A DNA stretch of 64,000 nt from a virus: the IMG/VR virus record IMGVR_UViG_3300031957_002938, positions 1 through 64,000 of that record; one strand, given 5' to 3'. The position numbers were made by a program, and so were the translations under genes. The notes under the pieces were generated by a model that saw only the letters and a program-made list of their open reading frames with translations, was not told the DNA's origin and made no database searches. Below are positions 33,420-56,902 of this stretch, piece after piece; within the stretch, counting starts at the first letter, position 1, and every line of letters starts with the position of its first letter.

Positions 33420-34458
33420 CTTGCTGTCCTATTCCCAAAACTCTTGCTTTCCATTCTGCCATACCCTCTAATCTTTCCGCTTCCTGCTTCACAGCCTCCT
33501 TTTGCATCTCTGCAATTCTTACCATTGTTTCTCTTTCTTCCTCTTCTTGGAAAAGTTGCACTATAGACAAAAACGAAGCATTTTCTTTGTTCATCTTCTT
33601 CATCCTTTCGCTTCTGTCTCCTTGAAGCTTTTTTGTCAGGTTCTCGATGCGGGTTTCACATTGATGATACTCTCCGCTCTTAGCTTTGATGATTTCAGCC
33701 AACCTGATAGACATTTCTTGCTGCTCGTCAGCATCATCGAACATGCTATTCAGTTTGTTCAAGTGAGCGCTAATAACTTCTAAGTTTATGACTTCCTTGC
33801 ACACGTTTAAATACAAATTTATTTCGTCTGCGGTTAAGTCGGGTTTATCCCAAGTCAATCGAGTAAATTCGTGTTCGAACAACACTCGATCCTCTTGATT
33901 TAAATAATTGTTAATAATTTTAAGAAATCTTGAGTTAGAAAAGTTAACCCCTAGTTTTTCTACGCAAATTTGTTTTTGTCTATTAAGTTTTGATTCATCT
34001 AACCTCAAACCAGTGGCATCATTGATTTTTTTGATGATTCGTGATGAAGACTTCGGTGCAATGTATGAATTGAGAGCGCCTGAATCTTGAGAAGGTAAAA
34101 TGTCAGGATTTACCTCTCTAATTTGCGACAGAACAGCTCTTTGCTCATTACTCAATGGTCTTACAGATCTAGACGGAAAAACTATGCGAGCTATCTCTAA
34201 AGAAGACAACCCTTCTCCAGCTTGTTGAATTATAAAATCTTTTTGCTCTTTTGTGAATTCTATAGTCTCGGTAGGCATTCTCGCTGTAGTTTTGAAATCT
34301 ATAGAATTTTCTACCAAAAATTTTCTTACAGCCCTACCTTCTTTGGACCTTCCGTCTAAAGAATCGTCTTCGAAACACTGTTTCGTTAAATCAATTAGAT
34401 CAGGGATCTTTGATGCGTTCTCCCTTAAAAAATCCTTCTGTTCTTTAGTTAGATCCAT
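33409..34458 (-). CDS. Candidate terminase small subunit (two helix-turn-helix-like repeats), 349 aa
   Basis: The N-terminus has two related segments beginning TKEQKDFLRENASK (about 4) and TKEQKDFIIQQAGEG (about 68). Each is followed by a helix-turn-helix-like stretch (LSSLEIARIVFPSRSVRPLS in the second), as expected for DNA recognition. The middle is helical (ENLTKKLQGDRSERMKKM coiled coil) and the end charged. It sits just upstream of the nuclease and terminase large genes. Role as small terminase or packaging-linked DNA-binding protein is inferred from position and repeats. Confidence 0.55.
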   Translation of the reverse strand: MDLTKEQKDFLRENASKIPDLIDLTKQCFEDDSLDGRSKEGRAVRKFLVENSIDFKTTARMPTETIEFTKEQKDFIIQQAGEGLSSLEIARIVFPSRSVRPLSNEQRAVLSQIREVNPDILPSQDSGALNSYIAPKSSSRIIKKINDATGLRLDESKLNRQKQICVEKLGVNFSNSRFLKIINNYLNQEDRVLFEHEFTRLTWDKPDLTADEINLYLNVCKEVINLEVISAHLNKLNSMFDDADEQQEMSIRLAEIIKAKSGEYHQCETRIENLTKKLQGDRSERMKKMNKENASFLSIVQLFQEEEERETMVRIAEMQKEAVKQEAERLEGMAEWKARVLGIGQQDVI

Positions 34459-35131
34459 CTCCTATAATATCTTGGTCCCTAAGTATTTCCATAGCTACCT
34501 GTAGGAACTTCTTTTTTAAATTTTTTACTTGTCTATAGCCAAGTTTTCTTTTTTGAGCAGAAATTTTGTAACCCATGAACTTAGCTACGTCTTCTTCACT
34601 GTTTTTTTCGAAATACAACATCCTATACGCAGTATAATGAATATTACTTAAACGAATTTTCATTTGACCGTTTAACCTCTCTAAAGATACAGTAAAATCA
34701 AAATCTATGTATTCTTTACCTTTTACCTCTTTAACAAAATCTTCAGTGGAAAGTGGTAACTTAACTTCTAAAGCTGATTTTTTTGTTTTTTTCCATTTTT
34801 GACATATAGGGCAAGTTGATGAATCATGATCTGGCTCATGTTGCTTGGGACAAGGGTTAACATAATTGCCGTAGTGATTTCTCACTAGGTTTCTTATTTG
34901 ATTAGATATTATTCTACCAATCCAAGGTTCAAGAGGTCTTTCTTGATCCCACATATGCCACTTCTTAGAAATGTGCAATTTGATGATTTGCTGAACATCA
35001 TCGAAGTCAAACCATTTTACAGCGTTAAGTCTCCACTTATATTGCTGTTTTTTAATCGCTGCGTCAATTACTTCAGAAAAGTCTTCATAAGTATACTCAC
35101 CCTTCTTTTTTCTTTTCATCAATAAATTCAT
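34445..35131 (-). CDS. Sigma-factor-like protein with zinc-binding insert, 228 aa
   Basis: Residues 32-90 resemble sigma region 2: WRLNAVKWFDFDDVQQIIKLHI, then KKWHMWDQERPLEPWIGRII and NQIRNLVRNHYG. A zinc-knuckle candidate follows (C94, H98, C107, C110). The C-terminus has a region-4-like part (SEEDVAKFMGY, LGYRQVKNLKKKFLQ). An internal ATG four codons in (35119) is an alternative start. It overlaps both neighbours. Placed among late genes, it is a good candidate for reading the AGTGTAA promoters; that link is hypothesis. Confidence 0.65.
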   Translation of the reverse strand: MNLLMKRKKKGEYTYEDFSEVIDAAIKKQQYKWRLNAVKWFDFDDVQQIIKLHISKKWHMWDQERPLEPWIGRIISNQIRNLVRNHYGNYVNPCPKQHEPDHDSSTCPICQKWKKTKKSALEVKLPLSTEDFVKEVKGKEYIDFDFTVSLERLNGQMKIRLSNIHYTAYRMLYFEKNSEEDVAKFMGYKISAQKRKLGYRQVKNLKKKFLQVAMEILRDQDIIGDGSN

Positions 35132-37337: not shown

Positions 37338-37569
37338 TCTTAATTATAGGGTCTGATTATTTTTTTTAAACAATAAATAGAACTCATGCCCCCGTTTACC
37401 ACGCCCAGACAAATGGGTGGGGGTTTCACCGTTGATAAATTGATAATGGACTCCCCCGCTCATTTTGCCACGCAAACGCTTAAAAATATTTTCAGAAATG
37501 GGGTGGGGTCTTGTGGGGTGTCAAGTCTTTTTTTAAATAAAAAAAAATAAAAAAAATACAATAAACTAG

Positions 37570-37598
37570 TTGCGTTTAGTTTTAATCTGTGCTATACT
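37570..37598 (+). promoter_or_regulatory. Leaderless sigma70-type promoter for 37605
   Basis: TTGCGT, 17 bp, TATACT, then 6 nt to the ATG at 37605. Transcription should start at or next to the start codon. Confidence 0.8.
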
Positions 37599-37604
37599 TA
37601 CTAC

Positions 37605-37835
37605 ATGAAAAACAAAGAATTAATAAATCGTTTAGGTAATGGAGTTGAGTTCACCGCACAAGGTGAGTGGTTTGTAGTCGCAGACACCGACTTTGAAAAT
37701 GGTGTCGTGTGGGGCGTTGATCAAGACGGCGGCGAGCGCGAGGTCTCTATAGATTCTATAGATGACATAAGCGAAAGTTTAGCCGACATGGTAAGCCGTG
37801 ATTGGTCGCCTATGCTCAACAAATTGAGCATATAA
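37605..37835 (+). CDS. Small protein, 76 aa, leaderless
   Basis: Acidic protein with FTAQGEWFVVADTDFENGVVWGVDQDGGE, a small beta-sheet-like pattern, and a C-terminal helix. No ribosome-binding site is possible, because the promoter -10 box ends 6 nt before the ATG. First member of the small-gene array. Function unknown. Confidence 0.75.
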   Translation: MKNKELINRLGNGVEFTAQGEWFVVADTDFENGVVWGVDQDGGEREVSIDSIDDISESLADMVSRDWSPMLNKLSI

Positions 37836-37865
37836 AAAAAAGATCAAAAAAGATCAAAAAAGATC

Positions 37866-37894
37866 TTGATTAACTTTTAACCCTGTGCTATATT
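37866..37894 (+). promoter_or_regulatory. Leaderless promoter for 37900
   Basis: TTGATT, 17 bp, TATATT with an extended TGC before it; 5 nt to the ATG. The boxes and spacer are nearly identical to those at 38065-38093. An AAGATC-A6-GATCTT inverted repeat lies just upstream. Confidence 0.8.
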
Positions 37895-37899
37895 CAGAT

Positions 37900-38046
37900 A
37901 TGGAAAATAAAACAGATAAATACATCATCTACGGTCAGTATGACCGAGATCATGAGTTTGACGGCACACTCGAAGAGTGCCGCGAGTGGATTCGCGTAGT
38001 CGATCCTAAGTGCAAGTGGTACTTCATAGCTCACGAGAGTGAGTAA
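37900..38046 (+). CDS. Small protein, 48 aa, leaderless
   Basis: Reads MENKTDKYIIYGQYDRDHEF and onward to KCKWYFIAHESE. It has a compact beta-like pattern (YIIYGQYDRD, CREWIRVVD, WYFIAHE). It is real by virtue of its dedicated promoter and clean codon use, although short. Function unknown. Confidence 0.7.
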   Translation: MENKTDKYIIYGQYDRDHEFDGTLEECREWIRVVDPKCKWYFIAHESE

Positions 38047-38064
38047 AAAAGATCAAAAAAGATC

Positions 38065-38093
38065 TTGACTAACTTTTAACCCTGTGCTATAGT
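38065..38093 (+). promoter_or_regulatory. Leaderless promoter for 38100
   Basis: TTGACT, 17 bp, extended TGC plus TATAGT, 6 nt to the ATG. Near copy of the promoter at 37866. Confidence 0.8.
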
Positions 38094-38099
38094 ATAAAC

Positions 38100-38303
38100 A
38101 TGACAGCAAAACAAGAATTACAATCAATCGAAGGCGAGGAAATCATTTTCAACATCTTTGACAATCAAGTCGAGCAAGGCATCCTTTCCTTTGATGCAAA
38201 TGAAAATGCGATAGTGACCTTTGACGATGGCGAGACAATGCAAATAAAAGTCGAGCAGTTCGTTGACACATACGAAAATTGGAGCAAAGAAAACTTCAGC
38301 TAA
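38100..38303 (+). CDS. Small acidic protein, 67 aa, leaderless
   Basis: MTAKQELQSIEGEEIIFNIF followed by short strands GILSFDANENAIVTFDDGE and a helix VDTYENWSKENF. Suggests a small beta-barrel/SH3-like fold, not a recognised family. Starts with ATGACAGCA like two other genes of the array. Confidence 0.75.
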   Translation: MTAKQELQSIEGEEIIFNIFDNQVEQGILSFDANENAIVTFDDGETMQIKVEQFVDTYENWSKENFS

Positions 38304-38321
38304 AAAAATATAATAAAATAG

Positions 38322-38350
38322 TTGCAATCAATTCTAATCTAGATTATACT
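38322..38350 (+). promoter_or_regulatory. Leaderless promoter for 38357
   Basis: TTGCAA, 17 bp, TATACT, 6 nt to the ATG. Confidence 0.8.
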
Positions 38351-38356
38351 TAAGCC

Positions 38357-38557
38357 ATGACAAAGACCAATCAAATCAGAATCACACGTTACTCTCACGC
38401 AAATCAGTATGACAATTCTCATTGTGGAATTGTTATAAACAAGGACAGATCAAAAGCATATGTCACGGTTCACGTTGCAGAAATGGCTTTTAAGTGCGTA
38501 GATGTCTCAAGAGAGGACGCGCTAAAGATCCTCAAGACAATGAAATCGGAGGCATAA
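38357..38557 (+). CDS. Small basic protein, 66 aa, leaderless
   Basis: Contains ITRYSHANQYDNSHCGIVIN, then KAYVTVHVAEMAFKCVDVS, ending in helix REDALKILKTMKSEA. Two cysteines. Function unknown. Confidence 0.72.
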   Translation: MTKTNQIRITRYSHANQYDNSHCGIVINKDRSKAYVTVHVAEMAFKCVDVSREDALKILKTMKSEA

Positions 38558-38574
38558 AAAGATCAAAAAAGATC

Positions 38575-38603
38575 TTGATTAAAATCTAAAATTCAACTAT
38601 ACT
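38575..38603 (+). promoter_or_regulatory. Leaderless promoter for 38610
   Basis: TTGATT, 17 bp, TATACT, 6 nt to the ATG. The stretch AAATTCAACTATACTAC to ATGACAGCAA is duplicated at 38798-38828. Confidence 0.8.
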
Positions 38604-38609
38604 ACCCAC

Positions 38610-38783
38610 ATGACAGCAACCGAAGAAGCACTAGCAGCAATGGCCAAAGCAGAAGAAGCGTGGAACGAAATGGTTAACAGAACCGTCGATGTCTCGGGCC
38701 AGTTCGTAAAAGAATGCCAAGAGTTCCAGAAAGAGCAGCGGGAATGGCTGCGCGAAAAAAAAGATTCTAAAAACGCAAAATAA
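38610..38783 (+). CDS. Small helical protein, 57 aa, leaderless
   Basis: Alanine/glutamate-rich helix MTATEEALAAMAKAEEAWNE and charged end. Its start region (ATGACAGCAA) and promoter are shared with 38821. Function unknown. Confidence 0.7.
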   Translation: MTATEEALAAMAKAEEAWNEMVNRTVDVSGQFVKECQEFQKEQREWLREKKDSKNAK

Positions 38784-38786
38784 TCC

Positions 38787-38814
38787 TTGCACTAATCCAA
38801 AATTCAACTATACT
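38787..38814 (+). promoter_or_regulatory. Leaderless promoter for 38821
   Basis: TTGCAC, 16 bp, TATACT, 6 nt to the ATG. Confidence 0.78.
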
Positions 38815-38820
38815 ACTCAC

Positions 38821-39081
38821 ATGACAGCAAGCAAAGAATACTACCGCAGCGTAACTTGGGACGATGGCCGCACAGTCAAATTCAACGATGACTTCGAAGT
38901 CGAAGGCTTCACCAAGGTCACCGATATATGGCCTTCTGAAAGTTCTATAGCTAGGAACCTTGAGCAACGCAAAGCTTTAGGCGGCGGCAAGTCTTTCGGA
39001 TACCGCTACAAGTCTATGCAAAGACAAGACTGGTATGTAGACTTCGACGCAAAAGCTTTCTGGGCTTCTGATAACGTCTAA
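38821..39081 (+). CDS. Small protein, 86 aa, leaderless
   Basis: MTASKEYYRSVTWDDGRTVK, then FNDDFEVEGFTKVTDIWPSE, and a C-terminal SMQRQDWYVDFDAKAFWA. Aromatic-rich; no family recognised. Confidence 0.72.
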   Translation: MTASKEYYRSVTWDDGRTVKFNDDFEVEGFTKVTDIWPSESSIARNLEQRKALGGGKSFGYRYKSMQRQDWYVDFDAKAFWASDNV

Positions 39082-39089
39082 AAAAAAAC

Positions 39090-39118
39090 TTTACTAACTT
39101 CTAAAACTACACTATACT
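39090..39118 (+). promoter_or_regulatory. Leaderless promoter for 39125
   Basis: TTTACT, 17 bp, TATACT, 6 nt to the ATG. Confidence 0.75.
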
Positions 39119-39124
39119 ACCCAC

Positions 39125-39373
39125 ATGAAAAAATTATTCTCTACTATCAATCACTTCATCGACCGCTTTCTCTTTAGCCTGATGATATGCGTTAGCTTTA
39201 ACCTTGCGCTCATATGCATAGCCGTCTTAATCGGTAGCGGTCCCGCACTTTTCAAAAGCGTTCTTCACGGTTGGGATGGCCTCGACTTTCTCGCTGTCAT
39301 GTTTATACCGAGCACTTTCGGCGCGGTTGTGTTATTGTTAGGGGATGCAGTCTTGAAAATAGTTCACAAATAA
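39125..39373 (+). CDS. Small membrane protein, 82 aa, leaderless
   Basis: Two hydrophobic segments: about residues 15-36 (FLFSLMICVSFNLALICIAV) and about 57-78 (FLAVMFIPSTFGAVVLLLGD). The positive N-terminus suggests both termini in the cytoplasm. Followed by a strong terminator. Possible phage accessory or exclusion protein; unproven. Confidence 0.72.
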   Translation: MKKLFSTINHFIDRFLFSLMICVSFNLALICIAVLIGSGPALFKSVLHGWDGLDFLAVMFIPSTFGAVVLLLGDAVLKIVHK

Positions 39374-39403
39374 TCTTGACAGGGTAACCTGTCGCTGTCA
39401 TGG

Positions 39404-39434
39404 AGCCTCGTCACCCAAGGGTGGCGGGGCTTTT
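39404..39434 (+). terminator. Rho-independent terminator after 39373
   Basis: AGCCTCGTCACCC pairs with GGGTGGCGGGGCT (two G-U wobbles) around a 2-nt loop, followed by TTTTA. Ends the membrane-protein transcript. Confidence 0.85.
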
Positions 39435-39500
39435 ACTTTCTAAAAAAAAGTTAAAAAAAAACTTGACAAAGCTGCTTGTTGATAGTATGTAAAAAGCCTC

Positions 39501-39580
39501 GTAACTCACTGATAGTCAACGACTTACAAGGGCGCGGCCCCCGCCGCCCCGTAAGTGACTGATACTCAACGACTTACGAG
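39501..39580. repeat. Palindromic intergenic element, copy 1
   Basis: Two imperfect 12-bp hairpins (39501-39527 and 39551-39577), each of the form GTAACTCnnTGA-TAC-TCAACGACTTAC, flank a GC-rich core GGGCGCGGCCCCCGCC. Related to copies near 40773, 41795, 42960 and 44352. Confidence 0.85.
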
Positions 39581-39724
39581 CCTTTATACGCACAGTCGAT
39601 CTGGGGGGCTGTCAAGTAAAAAAACACACTATTTACTATTTATCTATTTAACGTGTGACCTGCGACCTGCAACGTGTCAAGTGAAATTTAAATAATAAAA
39701 AATAATAAAAAAGAATAAAAATGG

Positions 39725-39752
39725 TTGCATTAAACAAAAAATAGGTTATACT
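39725..39752 (+). promoter_or_regulatory. Near-leaderless promoter for 39762
   Basis: TTGCAT, 16 bp, TATACT, 9 nt to the ATG, giving a leader of at most about 3 nt. Confidence 0.75.
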
Positions 39753-39761
39753 TACCCCATC

Positions 39762-39932
39762 ATGACAGAGACAAAATCAGATCTTCAACAACTCCTCCAA
39801 GAACAGACTGCGGTCGCACTTATGAGAGACGACATCTCGTTTCTTATCGGTTGGACTAAAGCCGACAATCCAGAAATCGCTCAAAGACTTGAGGACATCT
39901 TGGCTAATCACACAAAAAACAGAAATAAGTAA
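39762..39932 (+). CDS. Small helical protein, 56 aa, leaderless operon head
   Basis: MTETKSDLQQLLQEQTAVAL, DDISFLIGWTKADNPEIAQR and a basic end. First of three cistrons (39762, 39934, 40127) that follow with 1-bp spacers. Function unknown. Confidence 0.7.
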   Translation: MTETKSDLQQLLQEQTAVALMRDDISFLIGWTKADNPEIAQRLEDILANHTKNRNK

Positions 39933-39933
39933 A

Positions 39934-40125
39934 ATGATAAATCGAATCGATCAAATCCTAGCAAACCTAAACTGTGCCGCTGTAGATGGCGGCTTCTGCC
40001 TCTTTGTAAAGGATGGGGAAATTGTAGCCAAGGATCTTCTCTCCGAGGAGCCTCTTGAGTTTAATATCAGATTCGTTGGAACTGACATCTCTGACATCGA
40101 AGCAAAACCACTCACCAAAAAGTAA
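39934..40125 (+). CDS. Small protein, 63 aa
   Basis: Starts one base after the previous stop (TAAAATG), so it is probably translationally coupled. MINRIDQILANLNCAAVDGG then FCLFVKDGEIVAKDLLSEE. A longer frame starting at 39889 overlaps the previous gene and is rejected. Function unknown. Confidence 0.65.
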   Translation: MINRIDQILANLNCAAVDGGFCLFVKDGEIVAKDLLSEEPLEFNIRFVGTDISDIEAKPLTKK

Positions 40126-40126
40126 C

Positions 40127-40501
40127 ATGGGACTAGACCAATACGCAAAAAAAGTAAAGAGGAGATACAATCACGAAACCCTCACGGAGACAATCGTCAA
40201 AACTGAAATAGGTTACTGGCGCAAGCATCACGCACTAGAGTCTTATATGGCTGAACTATACAGCACTAAGACATATGATACAGGAGAGTTTAACCTTAAA
40301 ACTCTTAATCTTGACTCTGATGACTTGGATACCTTGGAAATGGTAATTAAAAAAAGTTTGTTACCTAAAACAGTATGGGGAGGGGTCAAGGATTGCACTG
40401 AAGATAATGACGAATATAAAGAAACTGATCTTGAGTTTATAACTAAAGCAAGAAAATGTCTCGCCAAAGGTTTCGAGGTGCAATATACATCTTGGTGGTA
40501 A
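40127..40501 (+). CDS. GYWRK-motif phage protein, 124 aa
   Basis: Begins MGLDQYAKKVKRRYN and contains EIGYWRKHHALESYMAELY. MGLDxY plus GYWRK defines a widespread phage/bacterial family I recognise by pattern but cannot name functionally. The C-terminus CLAKGFEVQYTSWW is also typical. The start one base after the previous stop is chosen over an upstream in-frame ATG at 40055. Confidence 0.75.
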   Translation: MGLDQYAKKVKRRYNHETLTETIVKTEIGYWRKHHALESYMAELYSTKTYDTGEFNLKTLNLDSDDLDTLEMVIKKSLLPKTVWGGVKDCTEDNDEYKETDLEFITKARKCLAKGFEVQYTSWW

Positions 40502-40528
40502 AGACTTAAAAAAAAAGTAATAAAACGC

Positions 40529-40556
40529 TTGCGCCCTCATAGGATCGGGGTATACT
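40529..40556 (+). promoter_or_regulatory. Leaderless promoter for 40563
   Basis: TTGCGC, 16 bp, TATACT, 6 nt to the ATG. Confidence 0.8.
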
Positions 40557-40562
40557 AATAGC

Positions 40563-40769
40563 ATGACAGTTCAAAATCCAATAGGCGACTTACAACCAAT
40601 GAATGAAACCGATCTCCGCGAAATGCTCGACGACGGGCCTCGCGCTGGCAACTGGAATCCCACACCCGACGAGGTGCAGGAGGCGCTAGCGCAGATCCAC
40701 GCCGACATGGGTGACCGCGACCCTAACTGGTCATCGGAGGTTGAGGATCAAGACGAGATCCCGATGTAA
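40563..40769 (+). CDS. Small acidic protein, 68 aa, leaderless
   Basis: Acidic and GC-rich in its second half (TPDEVQEALAQIHADMGDRD). Base composition differs sharply from neighbours, possibly a recent acquisition. Function unknown. Confidence 0.7.
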   Translation: MTVQNPIGDLQPMNETDLREMLDDGPRAGNWNPTPDEVQEALAQIHADMGDRDPNWSSEVEDQDEIPM

Positions 40770-40772
40770 GCT

Positions 40773-40850
40773 GTAACTCCCTAAGTCTCAACGACTTAGG
40801 GGGGCGCGGCCCCCGCCCACTCGTAACTCGTTGATACTCAACAGGTTATG
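40773..40850. repeat. Palindromic intergenic element, copy 2
   Basis: Arms GTAACTCCCTAAGTCTCAACGACTTAG and GTAACTCGTTGATACTCAACAGGTTAT (12-bp stems, 3-nt loops) flank GGGGCGCGGCCCCCGCCC. The first arm has diverged in sequence but still contains paired bases. Confidence 0.8.
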
Positions 40851-40888
40851 AAGCAAAAATAAAAATGCATTTAAATGCAAAAAAAAGG

Positions 40889-40916
40889 TTGCAATCTCTA
40901 TTTGTTGTGATATACT
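40889..40916 (+). promoter_or_regulatory. Leaderless promoter P1 for 40923
   Basis: TTGCAA, 16 bp, TATACT, 6 nt to an ATG at 40923 that is in frame with the later ATG at 41010. Confidence 0.75.
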
Positions 40917-40922
40917 ACGTCC

Positions 40923-41297
40923 ATGAAGTTGAAATTCCCCAAACTCTGGAGCAAAAAAAACAACAAATTACCACTTGACCTAACCCCACTTATCGGTTAT
41001 ACTACTCTCATGAATAAAACAACACACATCCTCAACACAGGTCCACACAACGACCTTCCTTCCAACCCTATCGAACTCGCCTCTGCTTTGACTGGCAAAA
41101 CTTTGGTATACAATGCTATCAAGTCCACCGTTAAAAGTAATAACACTAGAGTGTTTAAAGTTCAAAAGGTTGATGACGTATATACTTCAAACTCTACTGG
41201 TGAGAAGTGCGTGACTGTTTGGGCTAACGACATCGATAGAGATGGAGAACTTGTCCCTCGCACTTTGCACGTTCACGGTATCAAATCAATTTCCTAA
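40923..41297 (+). CDS. Dual-start protein, 124 or 95 aa
   Basis: Two leaderless promoters serve two in-frame ATGs (40923 and 41010). The long form adds 29 residues (MKLKFPKLWSKKNNKLPLDL and more) including a basic N-terminus. The shared part contains NPIELASALTGKTLVYNAIK and a strand VFKVQKVDDVYTSNSTGEKCVTVWA. The N-terminal addition might be a coding accident of the promoter region, so 41010 is the safer start. Function unknown. Confidence 0.65.
   Translation: MKLKFPKLWSKKNNKLPLDLTPLIGYTTLMNKTTHILNTGPHNDLPSNPIELASALTGKTLVYNAIKSTVKSNNTRVFKVQKVDDVYTSNSTGEKCVTVWANDIDRDGELVPRTLHVHGIKSIS
40975..41003 (+). promoter_or_regulatory. Leaderless promoter P2 for 41010
   Basis: TTGACC, 17 bp, TATACT, 6 nt to the ATG at 41010, located inside the longer reading frame. 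Confidence 0.8.
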
Positions 41298-41376
41298 TGG
41301 GGGAAGTGTGTGGTGGGGGGTGGTCTGCTGAAAGTAAAAGTATGTAGGCGGCTGCCCCCCATTTCCCTAAAAAAAC

Positions 41377-41405
41377 TTTACAAACAATAAACAATAAACT
41401 ATACT
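41377..41405 (+). promoter_or_regulatory. Leaderless promoter for 41411
   Basis: TTTACA, 17 bp, TATACT, 5 nt to the ATG. Confidence 0.78.
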
Positions 41406-41410
41406 AACCC

Positions 41411-41629
41411 ATGTCAAAATCACCTGAATCAATTCGTATCGAAGTCCAAAATAAAGATCAAGCTATCTTGCTTCAACACGCCTTACGTATCGTTCATCAA
41501 GACCTCGCCTCATATATGGGAGAGGTGCAAGATGACAAGTTCGAAAATTTTGTGGATAATGTGAAATGGACGCGTAAGCATCTAACTTCATTAGACAAAA
41601 AGTTTTCTTTGACTGCTAGCGAGTCTTAG
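41411..41629 (+). CDS. Small helical protein, 72 aa, leaderless
   Basis: MSKSPESIRIEVQNKDQAIL then LQHALRIVHQDLASYMGEVQ; helical, no family recognised. Confidence 0.72.
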   Translation: MSKSPESIRIEVQNKDQAILLQHALRIVHQDLASYMGEVQDDKFENFVDNVKWTRKHLTSLDKKFSLTASES

Positions 41630-41794
41630 AAAATCGGTGGTAACAGTGACCAACTCTTAATTGACTGGCACTCGTCAACAAGCCGACCCTCTCCTGTTTT
41701 TTCAGCGCAGTCTAATTAGTGGGAGGGGGAACCAATTTTCTTTTGGACATATCTACCTCGTCCCCTTCTGTCATGGGGGGCGGGGTTTTCCTTT

Positions 41795-41873
41795 GTAACT
41801 CACTGATACTTAGGGGGTTACGAGGCAGCGGCCCCCCGCGCCGTGTAACTCGTTGATACTCAATGACTTACGA
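41795..41873. repeat. Palindromic intergenic element, copy 3
   Basis: Left arm GTAACTCACTGATACTTAGG with GGTTACGAG, core GGCAGCGGCCCCCCGCGCC, right arm GTAACTCGTTGATACTCAATG with ACTTACGAG. Confidence 0.8.
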
Positions 41874-41977
41874 GGCAAAAATAAGCACACTTTTCTAGGT
41901 CTGTCAAGCATTTATTCTAACTATTTTGTCAAGAACTATTTTACCCAAAAAAGATTCAAATTAAATGCAGAAAGTTA

Positions 41978-42005
41978 TTGCAATCCGTCTCATTCTCGCT
42001 ATACT
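41978..42005 (+). promoter_or_regulatory. Leaderless promoter for 42012
   Basis: TTGCAA, 16 bp, TATACT, 6 nt to the ATG at 42012. It fixes the start of the DUF932-like gene. Confidence 0.82.
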
Positions 42006-42011
42006 TCTTGC

Positions 42012-42866
42012 ATGAGCTTAATCCTAGCTAAAAACAAAGTAAGTCGCGAGCAACTCGCGGCTGTCGATTCAGACACAGGTCTGTTTCTCGAAGGATTCGG
42101 TGAAAACGGAGTAGCTAAAAGGACTCCTGATTCCACCGATACCCACACACCAATCGCTCACTCGCTTCTCGTTGATGAAGCGCACAAGGCATTGGATCGG
42201 TTCGGCTTCGCAGTCGAAGAAGAAGAACACGCTCTCGCGTGTGCAGGTGACCAATACTTTGGCGGCTTTGCCATCAAAGGTCAAGATATCGAAGCTGCTG
42301 ACCGCCGTTTGGTTGTCGGTCTTCGCAACTCGCATAACAAGCGTTTTTCCGCTTCGGTTTGCATCGGCAACCAAATGATGGTTTGTGAAAACCTTTGTTT
42401 CTCTTCTGATGTAAAGCTTGCTCGCAAGCATACAAAATACATCGTCGGGGATCTTTCGCGCCTCCTTTCGGATGCAATCTCTAGTGTCGTCGAGCATTGG
42501 TCCGACATGGGCGACCGCATCAAAGCCTACAAGGCTACAGAGGTCGCTTCTAATCGCGTTGCCGACTTGGTTGTAGACTTGGTTGATGCCAAGGCCGTTG
42601 CTAAAGGTCGCATCTACGATGTTGTCGAAGAGTTTCGCAACCCTCGTCACGACGAGTTCAAAGGCGGCTCTCTCTGGACTCTCTACAATGGGATCACAGA
42701 GAATCTCAAGGGCAACGATATGACTTTGTTGTCAAATCGGACTCGCAAGATTCAAGGAATCTTTGACAGGGTAGCGGGTCACACCTCGCTCGCGCAAATC
42801 GAAGCGGCTAAAAAAGCCGCCGAGGAAGCCGCGAAAGAGGCCGAGATGGTCGCGCTTCCCGCGTAG
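42012..42866 (+). CDS. DUF932-like protein, 284 aa
   Basis: Phage/plasmid family of unknown function. The family region is visible as VVGLRNSHNKRFSASVCIGN, then QMMVCENLCFSSDVKLARKH. A helical C-terminus (AKKAAEEAAKEAEMVALPA) follows. GC-rich codons compared with the structural genes and its own strong promoter and terminator suggest high early expression. Some related proteins are linked to DNA metabolism or anti-restriction, but that does not follow from this sequence. Confidence 0.8.
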   Translation: MSLILAKNKVSREQLAAVDSDTGLFLEGFGENGVAKRTPDSTDTHTPIAHSLLVDEAHKALDRFGFAVEEEEHALACAGDQYFGGFAIKGQDIEAADRRLVVGLRNSHNKRFSASVCIGNQMMVCENLCFSSDVKLARKHTKYIVGDLSRLLSDAISSVVEHWSDMGDRIKAYKATEVASNRVADLVVDLVDAKAVAKGRIYDVVEEFRNPRHDEFKGGSLWTLYNGITENLKGNDMTLLSNRTRKIQGIFDRVAGHTSLAQIEAAKKAAEEAAKEAEMVALPA

Positions 42867-42880
42867 GTAAACCCATCACA

Positions 42881-42911
42881 GCCCGTCCCCGAGAGGGGGC
42901 GGGTTTTTTTG
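42881..42911 (+). terminator. Rho-independent terminator after DUF932 gene
   Basis: GCCCGTCCCC, GAGA loop, GGGGGCGGGT, then a run of T. One G-U wobble in a 10-bp stem. Confidence 0.93.
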
Positions 42912-42959
42912 TGCTTTCTTAAAACTTTTTTCTTGACACGCATTAAAGTAATAACCTTC

Positions 42960-43036
42960 GTAACTCGTTGGTTATCAATGAGTTAGGCGGCGCGGGGGGC
43001 CGCGCCCTCGTAACCCCTTGACTATCAACGTGTTAC
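42960..43036. repeat. Palindromic intergenic element, copy 4
   Basis: Left arm GTAACTCGTTGGTTATCAATGAGTTAG, core GGCGGCGCGGGGGGCCGCGCC, right arm GTAACCCCTTGACTATCAACGTGTTAC. The core runs G-rich here (opposite to copies 1-3). Confidence 0.82.
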
Positions 43037-43060
43037 AACTGAAAATAAATGCAATTAAAT

Positions 43061-43089
43061 TTGACAACGGTTTGCCCCCGTGCTATATT
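43061..43089 (+). promoter_or_regulatory. Leaderless promoter for 43096
   Basis: TTGACA, 17 bp, extended TGC plus TATATT, 6 nt to the ATG. Confidence 0.82.
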
Positions 43090-43095
43090 TAAGCC

Positions 43096-43332
43096 ATGAC
43101 ACCACCGAGACTAACCACAGAATCTTTTTCTATTTGCTATTATGATGGCAATACTGGAGAAGTAATAGAGCTTAAAACTTATCTTAATAACACTGGCCGA
43201 GTAATAGATACTTTGGAAATGGCTGTTGACAGCAAGCCCGAGTATGATGGACTTGTGCTATGGGATATAAACACTGTGAAAGAAGCAGATGACGACAGGA
43301 AACACATTGCAAAAAAAGTTTACCACAAGTAA
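43096..43332 (+). CDS. Small protein, 78 aa, leaderless
   Basis: MTPPRLTTESFSICYYDGNT with an acidic C-terminus containing VLWDINTVKEADDDRKHIAK. Function unknown. Confidence 0.72.
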   Translation: MTPPRLTTESFSICYYDGNTGEVIELKTYLNNTGRVIDTLEMAVDSKPEYDGLVLWDINTVKEADDDRKHIAKKVYHK

Positions 43333-43362
43333 ATTAATTTAATTAATTTTAATTAAAAAAAA

Positions 43363-43390
43363 TTGACAAACCGAGCGAGTCTTGTATACT
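43363..43390 (+). promoter_or_regulatory. Leaderless promoter for 43398
   Basis: TTGACA, 16 bp, TATACT, 7 nt to the ATG at 43398. An in-frame ATG at 43392 is only 1 nt from the -10 box and cannot be transcribed. Confidence 0.82.
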
Positions 43391-43397
43391 AATGCTC

Positions 43398-44084
43398 ATG
43401 TCAAACCTACTTAATTCAGGAAACTATAAAACGAGTAAGGGCGAAAAGTATGGTTGGAAAACCTATGGCTTGCACCTTGCACCCTTTAACTTATCAGGAA
43501 AAAATGTTTGCTCTTCTGCTTCTGTTGGTTGTTCTACTGCTTGCCTCAATACTGCTGGTCGTGGATCAATGCATTCAGTTCAAGATGCCCGAGTTAAAAA
43601 AACACAGAGGTTTTTCGAGGATCGGGTTGAATTCTTATCGCAGCTATTCAAGGAAATCAAAAGCTCGGTCAAGAGCGCGGCGAAGAAACAAATAAACTCT
43701 TGTTTCAGGCTTAATCTCACAAGCGACTTGCCTTGGGAGAATATGGTGGTCAAACACTTTCCAGATTCTCAATTCTACGACTACACAAAACACTTAAAAA
43801 GATTCGTTGCATACTTAGAGGGAAAGCTCCCTGACAATTACCATCTTACTTACTCCAGGGATGAAACAACGCCCGATACATTAGTTCAAAGCTTGTGTGC
43901 AAGTGGTGGAAACGTCGCTGTCGTTTTCCGAGGAAGTCTCCCAAAGACATGGCTTGGAATCGAAGTGATCGATGGCGACGATTCAGACTTGCGCTTTAAA
44001 GATGGCAACGGTAAAATTGTTGGGTTGCTAGAGAAAGGTCTTGCTAAGAAAGATGAAACTGGATTCGTAGTAGAGCCATGTTAA
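43398..44084 (+). CDS. Gp88-family phage protein, 228 aa
   Basis: Matches the phage gene-product-88 pattern: HLAPFNLSGKNVCSSASVGC, then CLNTAGRGSMHSVQDARVKK and a helix FEDRVEFLSQLFKEI. Clustered cysteines suggest a metal site. Biochemical function is not established. The start is set by the leaderless promoter. Confidence 0.8.
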   Translation: MSNLLNSGNYKTSKGEKYGWKTYGLHLAPFNLSGKNVCSSASVGCSTACLNTAGRGSMHSVQDARVKKTQRFFEDRVEFLSQLFKEIKSSVKSAAKKQINSCFRLNLTSDLPWENMVVKHFPDSQFYDYTKHLKRFVAYLEGKLPDNYHLTYSRDETTPDTLVQSLCASGGNVAVVFRGSLPKTWLGIEVIDGDDSDLRFKDGNGKIVGLLEKGLAKKDETGFVVEPC

Positions 44085-44344: not shown

Positions 44345-44351
44345 AACCCCC

Positions 44352-44428
44352 GTAACTCCTTGAGTATCAAGGGGTTAGAGGGCGCGGGGGGGCGCTCCCG
44401 CCTAACTCGTTGAGTATCAGTGACTTAC
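44352..44428. repeat. Palindromic intergenic element, copy 5
   Basis: Left arm GTAACTCCTTGAGTATCAAGGGGTTAG, core GGGCGCGGGGGGGCGCTCCC, right arm CTAACTCGTTGAGTATCAGTGACTTAC. Confidence 0.82.
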
Positions 44429-44457
44429 AAGGCGAATCTTTATGAATGCACACAAAA

Positions 44458-45056: not shown

Positions 45057-45341
45057 TCACTGGTTGTGGATATGTTCGATGTGCTTCTCAACATACTGCT
45101 CGAAGTCTCCTATATTGTTTAGGTGCTTGCGCCTCTCATCATATGCCATAGAGAAAGCATCAACATCCACAGCTTCCAGATCTTGGATATAATAATCTCT
45201 GCCGTGGAATTCACAAGAACTAATAGCTTCCCTTAATTCATTAATAGCAGATAGGATTCGAACATTTCCCTCCAATAACGATTCTTTTGAAGTGCCATTA
45301 AGGTGAACTGTCGGTAGTGGATACTCTTTTGTTTCAGTCAT
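45057..45341 (-). CDS. Hypothetical acidic protein, 94 aa, leaderless
   Basis: Reads MTETKEYPLPTVHLNGTSKE, with a helical second half including CEFHGRDYYIQDLEAVDVDAF. The ATG at 45341 is chosen because it lies 6 nt after the -10 box; the ATG two codons upstream abuts it. Function unknown. Confidence 0.7.
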   Translation of the reverse strand: MTETKEYPLPTVHLNGTSKESLLEGNVRILSAINELREAISSCEFHGRDYYIQDLEAVDVDAFSMAYDERRKHLNNIGDFEQYVEKHIEHIHNQ

Positions 45342-45347
45342 GTGCAT

Positions 45348-45376
45348 ATACTACTACCACCTACGGTGGTAGTCAA
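45348..45376 (-). promoter_or_regulatory. Leaderless promoter for 45341 with internal palindrome
   Basis: On the minus strand TTGACT, 17 bp, TAGTAT, 6 nt to the ATG. The spacer holds ACCACCGTAGGTGGT, a palindrome between the boxes and so a likely repressor operator. Confidence 0.65.
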
Positions 45377-45570: not shown

Positions 45571-45644
45571 TAGGTGCGGTGGGATTCGAACCCACACTTT
45601 ACGGATTTTAAGTCCGTTGCCTCTGCCAGTTGGGCTACGCACCC
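45571..45644 (-). tRNA. tRNA with anticodon UAA (Leu), short variable loop
   Basis: The minus strand folds as a cloverleaf. Acceptor stem GGGTGCG/CGCACCT (G1-U72 wobble), anticodon stem ACGGA/TCCGT with loop CTTAAAA (anticodon UAA), variable loop AAAGT, T-arm GTGGG-TTCGAAT-CCCAC. CCA is not encoded. Bacterial leucine tRNAs normally have a long variable arm, and this one does not. It would read UUA, common in this AT-rich genome. Confidence 0.85.
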
Positions 45645-53229: not shown

Positions 53230-53357
53230 TTATTTTCTTCTTTTTTTCTTTGATGCTCCTCAATAAAGCGGTCCTGTTCTGCATTAATCCCTAGAAGGCG
53301 GCAAACAAATAGGATAAAGGCTATCCAGGCGATAATAATAAATATCCATAATAGCAT
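53226..53357 (-). CDS. Small membrane protein, 43 aa, leaderless
   Basis: MLLWIFIIIAWIAFILFVCR is a single membrane helix followed by a charged tail (EEHQRKKEENK). Its ATG follows a perfect -10 box by 7 nt, and its stop overlaps the next ATG. Head of the 53357-48875 operon. Confidence 0.65.
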   Translation of the reverse strand: MLLWIFIIIAWIAFILFVCRLLGINAEQDRFIEEHQRKKEENK

Positions 53358-55642: not shown

Positions 55643-56902
55643 TTAATTATTGAATTCAAGCTTAATAGCTTTTGAAGTCCCAGCCAAACCAAGATAAACA
55701 TCGTCGCCTTTTACTAAAGGTGCTGTTGAGTATCCCGTCCCGATGCTCATAATACCAGAGCCGTCTTCAACAGTCAAGTTGCCATCTGAAAATTCATATT
55801 CATAATCTTTCCACTGTATCTCATAAGTCTCTGGATTAATCCTAAAACATTTTGTATCAGCCCAAAACGTGCTGTAAACCCAACCGTCAGGGGCTAAATA
55901 ACCTTGAAAGCTTTTGTTTTTATTAGCTACCGCCAAGAAATCTGGAGGCAAATCAATCTCTTCATAGCTATCGTCAGAACAATCAATGATAAGAATTTTT
56001 CTACCTGTTCTTGGGATGCAAAATACTTTATTAACTGATGCAACATATGTAGCTCCTACATATTTGACATCAAACCCACTGGTCCCAGATTTAACAGGTT
56101 CTCCCTCAAGATATTTAAAAACGCCATTTTTATCTATTTTAGCGACGCTTTGATTCAAAGCAGGGGGCATATAAATCTCTCCCTTTGCATCTGCTGCTGC
56201 ACCCCAAATATGGCCAAAAGCTGACCAAAATCCACCTTTGACTGGTTTATCTGGGGTGTATGATCCTACTTCTCCAGTATTTGTATCTAAAGTATAAATC
56301 TTTAGAGTCTTAGTGTATGAGGGCATATAAATAATACCATTTAACCCCTCTGCCCCAGATCTAATTTGAGGACTCGTCCTGAATTTTTTTTCTATGGTTA
56401 TAGAACCAGTCTTCCTACCAAGCTTACCAATAGAACTCGCATAAGCTGGCATAAAATAAGTGTATCCATCTGAAGCTTCAACAGTGCCGATAAAACCTTT
56501 ATAACCTAATTCATTTCTTTTTATAGAATCAGTAGCTGTATCAGTCTCAATATGCATATTCGACTTATAACCTAATGAATGAATTGTCCCGTTATCATCC
56601 ATAGCCATAGTGCGTGTTTTGGTAAGATTACCTACTATTTCATTTTTTAAATATTTAAAATTCGGCCAAGGCAAATTCCTTAAATTAATACTGACGCTCG
56701 TCGAACCGATGCCAACACTCGTCGAACCAATGCCAACGCTCGTCGAACCGATACCAACGCTCGTCGAACCGATACCAACGCTCGTCGAACCAATGCCAAC
56801 GCTCGTCGAACCGATACCAACTCTTGGAGACACAACCTCGTCAACTGCTTTGTTGTAACTTTTAAATAAGTTAATTATTTTTTTTATAAATCCAAAAAAC
56901 AT
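55643..56902 (-). CDS. Beta-propeller-like protein with VGIGSTS repeats, 419 aa
   Basis: The N-terminus (about 1-27) is amphipathic. Then six perfect VGIGSTS heptapeptides at about 28-69, encoded by 21-bp DNA repeats. From residue 100 a series of beta blades with repeated DGxxYMPxY... elements (GYTYFMPAYASS, GIIYMPSYTKT, GEIYMPPALNQS, KVFCIPRTGR, GWVYSTFW) resembles a propeller. Likely surface- or receptor-interacting virion protein, or secreted; inferred. Confidence 0.65.
   Translation of the reverse strand: MFFGFIKKIINLFKSYNKAVDEVVSPRVGIGSTSVGIGSTSVGIGSTSVGIGSTSVGIGSTSVGIGSTSVSINLRNLPWPNFKYLKNEIVGNLTKTRTMAMDDNGTIHSLGYKSNMHIETDTATDSIKRNELGYKGFIGTVEASDGYTYFMPAYASSIGKLGRKTGSITIEKKFRTSPQIRSGAEGLNGIIYMPSYTKTLKIYTLDTNTGEVGSYTPDKPVKGGFWSAFGHIWGAAADAKGEIYMPPALNQSVAKIDKNGVFKYLEGEPVKSGTSGFDVKYVGATYVASVNKVFCIPRTGRKILIIDCSDDSYEEIDLPPDFLAVANKNKSFQGYLAPDGWVYSTFWADTKCFRINPETYEIQWKDYEYEFSDGNLTVEDGSGIMSIGTGYSTAPLVKGDDVYLGLAGTSKAIKLEFNN
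56696..56821 (-). repeat. Six in-frame 21-bp repeats coding VGIGSTS
   Basis: Six tandem units of 21 bp with few synonymous differences (e.g. GGCATTGGTTCGACGAGTGTT-type units on the coding strand) occupy 56696-56821. Copy number changes would keep the frame. Confidence 0.93.

Follow-up and report, generated by a model that had tools for sequence, protein, structure and literature searches.

Promoters placed as if for leaderless mRNAs in an array of small phage genes

Why should promoter after promoter in a run of small phage genes end the same few nucleotides before a start codon? The question is raised by a ~6-kb array in IMG/VR virus record IMGVR_UViG_3300031957_002938, which comes from an uncultured marine virus that infects bacteria. 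The full record comprises 89,658 bp, with a GC (guanine plus cytosine) content of 37%, and its positions 1-64,000 form the stretch analyzed here, referred to as the window. Within 37.6-43.4 kb, 15 plus-strand ATG codons sit behind sigma70-type promoters, and the distance from the end of the -10 box to the ATG is 6 nt in 11 of the 15 (37605, 38100, 38357, 38610, 38821, 39125, 40563, 40923, 41010, 42012, and 43096), the remaining gaps being 5 nt (37900 and 41411), 7 nt (43398), and 9 nt (39762). An earlier note on this DNA had proposed that the promoters are placed to yield leaderless mRNAs. That proposal is supported by the fixed 6-nt gap, the C at position -1, the retention of both in relatives, the constraint on the open reading frames (ORFs), and the recurrence of the layout in unrelated phages. 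We put at about 0.85 the probability that the array is a set of self-contained transcription-translation cassettes, with promoters placed for leaderless mRNAs that start on the ATG.

All plus-strand starts listed in the earlier note were found with their boxes and gaps, and the spacer between the -35 and -10 boxes is 16-17 bp at every one of them. The promoters conform to the sigma70 type, with -35 boxes beginning TTG, TATAAT-like -10 boxes, and spacing within 16-18 bp. The description of the -35 boxes as TTGnnn-like holds for most starts and fails at 39125 and 41411, where the box is TTTAC. Likewise, most small genes do have one promoter each, the exceptions being 40923/41010, a single frame with two starts, and the ORFs at 39934 and 40127, which lack promoters of their own. 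As for the claimed recurrence on the minus strand, the gap is 6 nt at 45341, but with TAGTAT as the -10 box, and 7 nt and 9 nt at 53357 and 48391, respectively. The units are as follows, with relatives denoted by L numbers.

37570-37835, plus: unit 1, TTGCGT-17-TATACT (37570-37598), 6 nt, ATG 37605; 76-residue ORF; orthologue in L087 keeps TATAGT and 6 nt
37866-38046, plus: unit 2, TTGATT-17-TATATT (37866-37894), 5 nt, ATG 37900; 48-residue ORF; homologue in L093 has TATACT and 6 nt
38065-38303, plus: unit 3, TTGACT-17-TATAGT (38065-38093), 6 nt, ATG 38100; 67-residue ORF; no relative found
38322-38557, plus: unit 4, TTGCAA-17-TATACT (38322-38350), 6 nt, ATG 38357; 66-residue ORF; layout kept in L085, L086, and L222, with diverged spacer
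38575-38783, plus: unit 5, TTGATT-17-TATACT (38575-38603), 6 nt, ATG 38610; 57-residue ORF
38787-39081, plus: unit 6, TTGCAC-16-TATACT (38787-38814), 6 nt, ATG 38821; 86-residue ORF
39090-39373, plus: unit 7, TTTACT-17-TATACT (39090-39118), 6 nt, ATG 39125; 82-residue ORF with hydrophobic stretches
39402-39433, plus: intrinsic terminator closing units 1-7
39725-39932, plus: unit 8, TTGCAT-16-TATACT (39725-39752), 9 nt, ATG 39762; 56-residue ORF
39934-40125 and 40127-40501, plus: two ORFs without their own promoter behind unit 8, each 1 nt past the preceding stop codon
40529-40769, plus: unit 9, TTGCGC-16-TATACT (40529-40556), 6 nt, ATG 40563; 68-residue ORF
40889-41297, plus: unit 10 (long form), TTGCAA-16-TATACT (40889-40916), 6 nt, ATG 40923; 124-residue ORF; conserved in L085, L086, and L087
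40975-41297, plus: unit 10b (short form), TTGACC-17-TATACT (40975-41003), 6 nt, ATG 41010; 95 residues, same frame as unit 10
41377-41629, plus: unit 11, TTTACA-17-TATACT (41377-41405), 5 nt, ATG 41411; 72-residue ORF
41755-41786, plus: intrinsic terminator
41978-42866, plus: unit 12, TTGCAA-16-TATACT (41978-42005), 6 nt, ATG 42012; DUF932 protein, 284 residues
42880-42905, plus: intrinsic terminator
43061-43332, plus: unit 13, TTGACA-17-TATATT (43061-43089), 6 nt, ATG 43096; 78-residue ORF
43363-44084, plus: unit 14, TTGACA-16-TATACT (43363-43390), 7 nt, ATG 43398; GP88-family protein, 228 residues (PF17338, 7.4e-47)
45057-45376, minus: minus-strand unit, TTGACT-17-TAGTAT, 6 nt, ATG 45341

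The spacing is not a product of chance. In the window, TATACT precedes an ATG by 6 nt 10 times, compared with 0-2 times at neighboring gaps, and TATACT-N6-ATGA occurs in nine copies in the full record, every one of them on the plus strand and inside the array, with none in the reversed control. Strict sites, defined by a -35 box, a -10 box, and an ORF of at least 35 codons, number 10 at 6 nt and 12 at 5-7 nt in the array, whereas 300 dinucleotide shuffles of the array give, for gaps of 5-7 nt, 0.03 on average and never more than 1; across the whole record, 11 of the 12 6-nt sites fall inside it. With only 5-7 nt (once 9) available, no Shine-Dalgarno motif fits between promoter and start, and the phage overall is poor in such motifs. 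The array also displays the hallmark of TA-led leaderless genes, a TANNNT box ~12 bp 5' of the start codon at a fixed gap.

In bacteria, RNA polymerase usually places +1 on a purine that follows a pyrimidine and lies seven bases past the -10 box; with the C found at -1, this rule predicts that +1 is the A of the ATG. Each cassette carries A-rich DNA upstream, then a -35 box set 16-17 bp from a TANNNT box that ends 6 nt before the ATG, and C at -1. From this layout, RNA polymerase with the main host sigma factor would be expected to initiate at the A of the ATG, and ribosomes to bind the 5'-terminal AUG directly, with neither a leader nor a Shine-Dalgarno motif. Transcription and translation start signals would in this way be fused in ~35 bp, such that a small gene could be gained, lost, or swapped together with its full expression signal.

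Conservation among relatives, which the earlier note had suggested examining, gave a positive answer. The relatives are 32 array loci that were retrieved with the DUF932 protein (ATG 42012) as the query rather than with the motif. In these loci, TATACT ends 6 nt before an ATG 81 times, compared with ~4 at other gaps; under a looser rule and after deduplication, 172 distinct sites have the 6-nt gap vs 8-29 at 4, 5, 7, 8, 9, and 10 nt. The peak is specific to ATG, with none for GTG or TTG starts in the 32 loci. The base preceding the ATG is C at 160 (93%) and T at 11 of the 172 sites and is mixed at other gaps. In an alignment of 61 sites, the features that stand out besides the -35 and -10 boxes are an A-tract from -38 to -44, a T at -17, and the C at -1. 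Orthologues hold the 6-nt gap while the spacers and the letters of the -10 box drift (TATACT, TATGTT, TAGATT, TAGGTT, and TACATT). Thus, orthologues of 40563 have TATACT, TATGTT, TAGATT, or TAGGTT, each 6 nt before ATGACAGT, with C at -1 except for T in L086, and the GP88 gene, whose -10 box is TATACT or TATAGT in this phage and its near relatives, has TACATT with 6 nt in L105-L107.

The start at 41411 has TATACT and 5 nt here vs TAGAAT and 6 nt in L085 and TAAATT and 6 nt in L104. For 39762, four relatives (L104, L105, L107, and L108) have the 6-nt layout directly at the ATG; in the present phage and in L087, transcription is predicted to begin at the A of an ATC that directly precedes the ATG, giving a 3-nt leader. 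The 40923/41010 frame has a second complete promoter inside the coding frame, with the two starts 87 nt apart, in frame, and kept in L085, L086, and L087; such nested leaderless promoters predict two forms of one protein, of 124 and 95 residues.

Differences between orthologues concentrate at the third codon position, with values for the three positions of 0.23, 0.16, and 0.48 in 10,833 codon comparisons (pairs overlap and are non-independent) and to 0.20, 0.15, and 0.39 in the first 20 codons, with the first codons conserved. Judged from these alignments, the small ORFs are genes constrained at the protein level, and the codon-position pattern of the first 20 codons fits translation from the first ATG. 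Conservation differs from gene to gene: the 38821 protein shares 94% identity with its counterparts in L107 and L108, with only 46-57% for 41411 and 41010 there; for 39762, identity is 100% with L087 and 62% with L085; and for 40923, it is 94% with L085 and 71-73% with L087. Because of this unevenness, the units seem to move as exchangeable cassettes. Neighboring promoters are alike (repeat families D3, D4, D6, and D8), including a longer A-rich/GATC block (D4) common to the upstream regions of several units, and this likeness would help cassette exchange. As the earlier note anticipated, most array proteins have no known family: GP88 and DUF932 proteins are the only recognizable ones, searches of PHROGs with 10 small proteins and of Pfam with 8 others yielded no match, and Rfam gave no credible match in the array.

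The layout is not confined to this family. In three exact-pattern scans of IMG/VR, contigs were scored with the search hits themselves left out, and their other sites still peak at 6 nt (74 vs at most 12, 80 vs at most 16, and 21 vs at most 6). Pooled and deduplicated, these amount to 232 at 6 nt vs 23-83 elsewhere, with C at -1 in 62% vs 16-39%. The largest array, of ~18 units, is on L163 (a 146-kb contig with 55% GC), followed by L337 (16), L215/L198 (13), L199, L322, and L393 (~10 each), and L382, L310, and L209 (8-10). By blastp, array-bearing phages form several groups that share little among themselves or with the present phage, and -10 boxes in unrelated phages include TACAAT, TATAAT, and TAGAAT. 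Some seem to carry T4-like genes, namely, a gp32-like gene in L382 and a gp17-like terminase gene in L310, as read from the sequences rather than from a family search, and a peptidase of L215 matches those of T4-like cyanophages at 30-32%. Array-like leaderless layouts, with differing GC and gene content, were also seen in L190, L385, and L241, the last with 58% GC and genes encoding up to 517 residues, which suggests that the layout is not restricted to tiny genes.

Several observations weigh against the leaderless reading or its reach. The start choice of the polymerase varies by 1-2 nt, so that some mRNAs may begin past the A or with a short leader. No array peak was detected in HMO-2011, HTVC134P, MedDCM-S42-C7, Limnohabitans DC31, Caulobacter Cr30, Tunturi_5, or S-PM2, a small sample of named phages with most records read in part, or in the single-cell viral record AG-345-D19; GP88 was accordingly rejected as a lead to named phages with the layout, the first three being negative. 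In phiYS40 (40 kb of NC_008584), the signal is weak, with 5 loose layouts at 6 nt vs 0-4 elsewhere and no strict ones at 6 nt. As to the host, three contigs from metagenome-assembled genomes with a related terminase sit in discordant bins (Flavobacteriaceae, uncultured bacterium, and Verrucomicrobiales). The full promoter pattern outnumbers its reversed control in 57 Verrucomicrobiales genomes (12 vs 0) but not in 60 Flavobacteriaceae genomes (2 vs 3). Verrucomicrobiales were nevertheless dropped as host, given that 377 kb of the genome with the most pattern matches has no 6-nt peak and that 4 of the 12 matches are a near-identical promoter in four genomes.

The alternative that survives best, although we consider it doubtful, is that the layout is the ordinary expression habit of the host group, copied by the phage. 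Leaderless genes exceed 20% in some phyla (PMC3160421), and the paucity of Shine-Dalgarno motifs throughout the phage points the same way. However, the layout is nearly confined to the array, as the distribution of the 6-nt sites attests, whereas structural genes bear a different motif, GTGTAA (see below), and the one candidate host-group genome lacks the peak in the 377 kb read. Moreover, such a habit would explain, rather than remove, the leaderless placement.

Much less probable is an ordinary early operon, in which the boxes are real promoters, most protein is made from long read-through mRNAs, and the adjacency of the ATG merely reflects compact intergenic space. Intergenic gaps are indeed short, and strong intrinsic terminators are limited to the three listed above; with so few between units, upstream transcripts probably read through, so that units 1-7 probably yield overlapping mRNAs and the gene doses are not kept strictly apart. 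Yet compactness predicts a spread of gaps instead of a sharp 6-nt peak with C at -1 in 93% of the 172 sites, internal genes on a read-through mRNA would have no Shine-Dalgarno motif, and the intergenic space is sometimes long, for example, 5' of 39762 and 42012. Improbable to a still greater degree is the possibility that the -10-like box and CATG mainly constitute a translation or regulator-binding signal rather than a promoter. The unusual uniformity of the motif and the shared D4 block would suit such a signal, but a -35 box is conserved alongside at 16-17 bp, and the box varies within TANNNT in orthologues, and among unrelated phages, as a sigma70 -10 element would. Chance, the notion that AT-rich DNA simply yields promoter-like boxes, has some basis in a generic scan without a fixed gap (23 sites vs 12.6 expected) but is refuted by the fixed-gap count and by conservation in relatives.

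Precedents for the predicted cassettes exist in part. The lambda PRM-cI transcript is a single phage mRNA beginning at AUG, for one regulatory gene as opposed to an array; the comparison with it in the earlier note is fair but understates the precedent, which extends to Actinobacteria, Deinococcus-Thermus, and other phage transcripts. The early regions of T4, SPO1, and T5 contain many strong sigma70 early promoters before small host-takeover genes, but, unlike in the array, their early mRNAs have leaders with Shine-Dalgarno motifs, and the promoters often serve several genes. The Thermus phage phiYS40 and its relatives, lytic phages, reportedly use leaderless mRNAs for middle and late genes, a likeness that does not extend to the array layout, which was not recovered in the 40 kb of phiYS40 scanned. 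In bacteria, Actinobacteria and Deinococcus-Thermus have many leaderless genes (PMC3160421, PMC12340547), their published signature is TANNNT ~12 bp before the start codon (PMC3160421), and in Deinococcus radiodurans this box was shown experimentally to be a -10 element (PMC12340547); a passing remark elsewhere describes phage transcripts as often leaderless (PMC5312081). The TA-led genes resemble the array in having TANNNT a few nucleotides before the start, with the mRNA expected to begin at the start codon, and in mycobacteria they include many small ORFs (PMC4633059), but they lie dispersed in a cellular genome, have a box with little information in its middle, and also use GTG starts, whereas the phage array combines -35 boxes with an A-tract, starts only at ATG, has C at -1, and gives each small gene one promoter. 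No published description of such arrays was found in the open-licence literature searched. Leaderless genes and single phage cases are known; new are the apparently leaderless promoter for each small gene and its conservation across phage families.

The small genes and the type of promoter suggest that the array is an early region transcribed by the host polymerase; a host-takeover role and a fixed dosage of its products are guesses. With evenly divided confidence, we propose that fused promoter-start-codon arrays represent a general way of organizing early genes, evolved repeatedly in several uncultivated phage lineages, in which small effector genes would be swapped as plug-in units, each expressed without a ribosome-binding site and perhaps still translated when ordinary initiation is disturbed. 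Phage leaderless mRNAs are mostly known singly, and a conserved 6-nt rule in unrelated phages would show that translation starts are set by promoters in early-region cassettes. The rule offers a practical means of locating the correct start codons of small phage genes, which gene-calling programs may overlook or begin at the wrong place; the array marks sets of candidate host-takeover proteins; and the layout predicts hosts with efficient translation of leaderless mRNA. In addition, it opens to testing the idea that phages favor leaderless initiation to escape translational shut-down.

Across the family, a second motif, (A)GTGTAA(T), stands upstream of many genes, structural ones among them, with the ATG 8-10 or 12-15 nt downstream. 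Examples in the window are as follows.

20347, plus: GTGTAA motif
48480, plus: GTGTAA motif
60911, plus: GTGTAA motif
54535, minus: GTGTAA motif
58777, minus: GTGTAA motif
37156, minus: GTGTAA motif
36287, minus: GTGTAA motif

At sites with the ATG at a distance other than 8 nt, the base 8 nt past the motif is nonetheless an A in 79% of 91 cases, so that GTGTAA likely marks a promoter-like class with a fixed start and leaders of 0-7 nt. Since the TATACT and GTGTAA classes of this family would both give leaders of 0-7 nt, much of its transcription may be leaderless, a proposition we hold with the same divided confidence. The product of 34445-35131 (minus strand) is a candidate sigma factor for the GTGTAA class, with a weak match to sigma-70 region 2 (E value 7e-4) that fails the Pfam cut-off.

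Two kinds of palindromic elements accompany the array genes.

39500-39590, 40772-40862, 41794-41884, 42959-43049, and 44351-44441: five copies of a 91-nt element between array genes
37847-37868: AAGATCAAAAAAGATCTT palindrome
38046-38067: AAGATCAAAAAAGATCTT palindrome
38556-38577: AAGATCAAAAAAGATCTT palindrome

The 91-nt element comprises two 27-nt imperfect palindromes (of the GTAACTCGTTGATACTCAACGACTTAC type) flanking a GC-rich core and forms strong hairpins. Matching palindromes occur in all 32 relative array loci, 1-8 in each, and are absent from the other array-bearing phages checked. An origin of these palindromes (D1) as a host repeat was rejected: the strict pattern is present in 1 of ~580 Verrucomicrobiota and Bacteroidota genomes, bins aside, and this near-absence from bacterial genomes assigns them to the phage family. 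The AAGATCAAAAAAGATCTT palindrome lies directly before or overlaps the -35 box of three units and is a possible operator.

The virus is a tailed phage with genes for terminase, PhoH, RuvB-like, and SprT-like proteins and ribonucleotide reductase, and a 2132-residue ORF resembles a tape measure protein. Its terminase has 339 relatives in IMG/VR, with 85-99% identity for the best 80 of the 339, and aligns with those of named phages over half of the protein at ~22-28% identity, which places the phage in an abundant family that has no cultured representative in the collection searched. A tRNA-Leu gene (anticodon taa) at 45571-45644 (minus strand) is, at 74 nt, short for a leucine tRNA, and the protein encoded at 55643-56902 (minus strand) contains six tandem copies of VGIGSTS near the N terminus.

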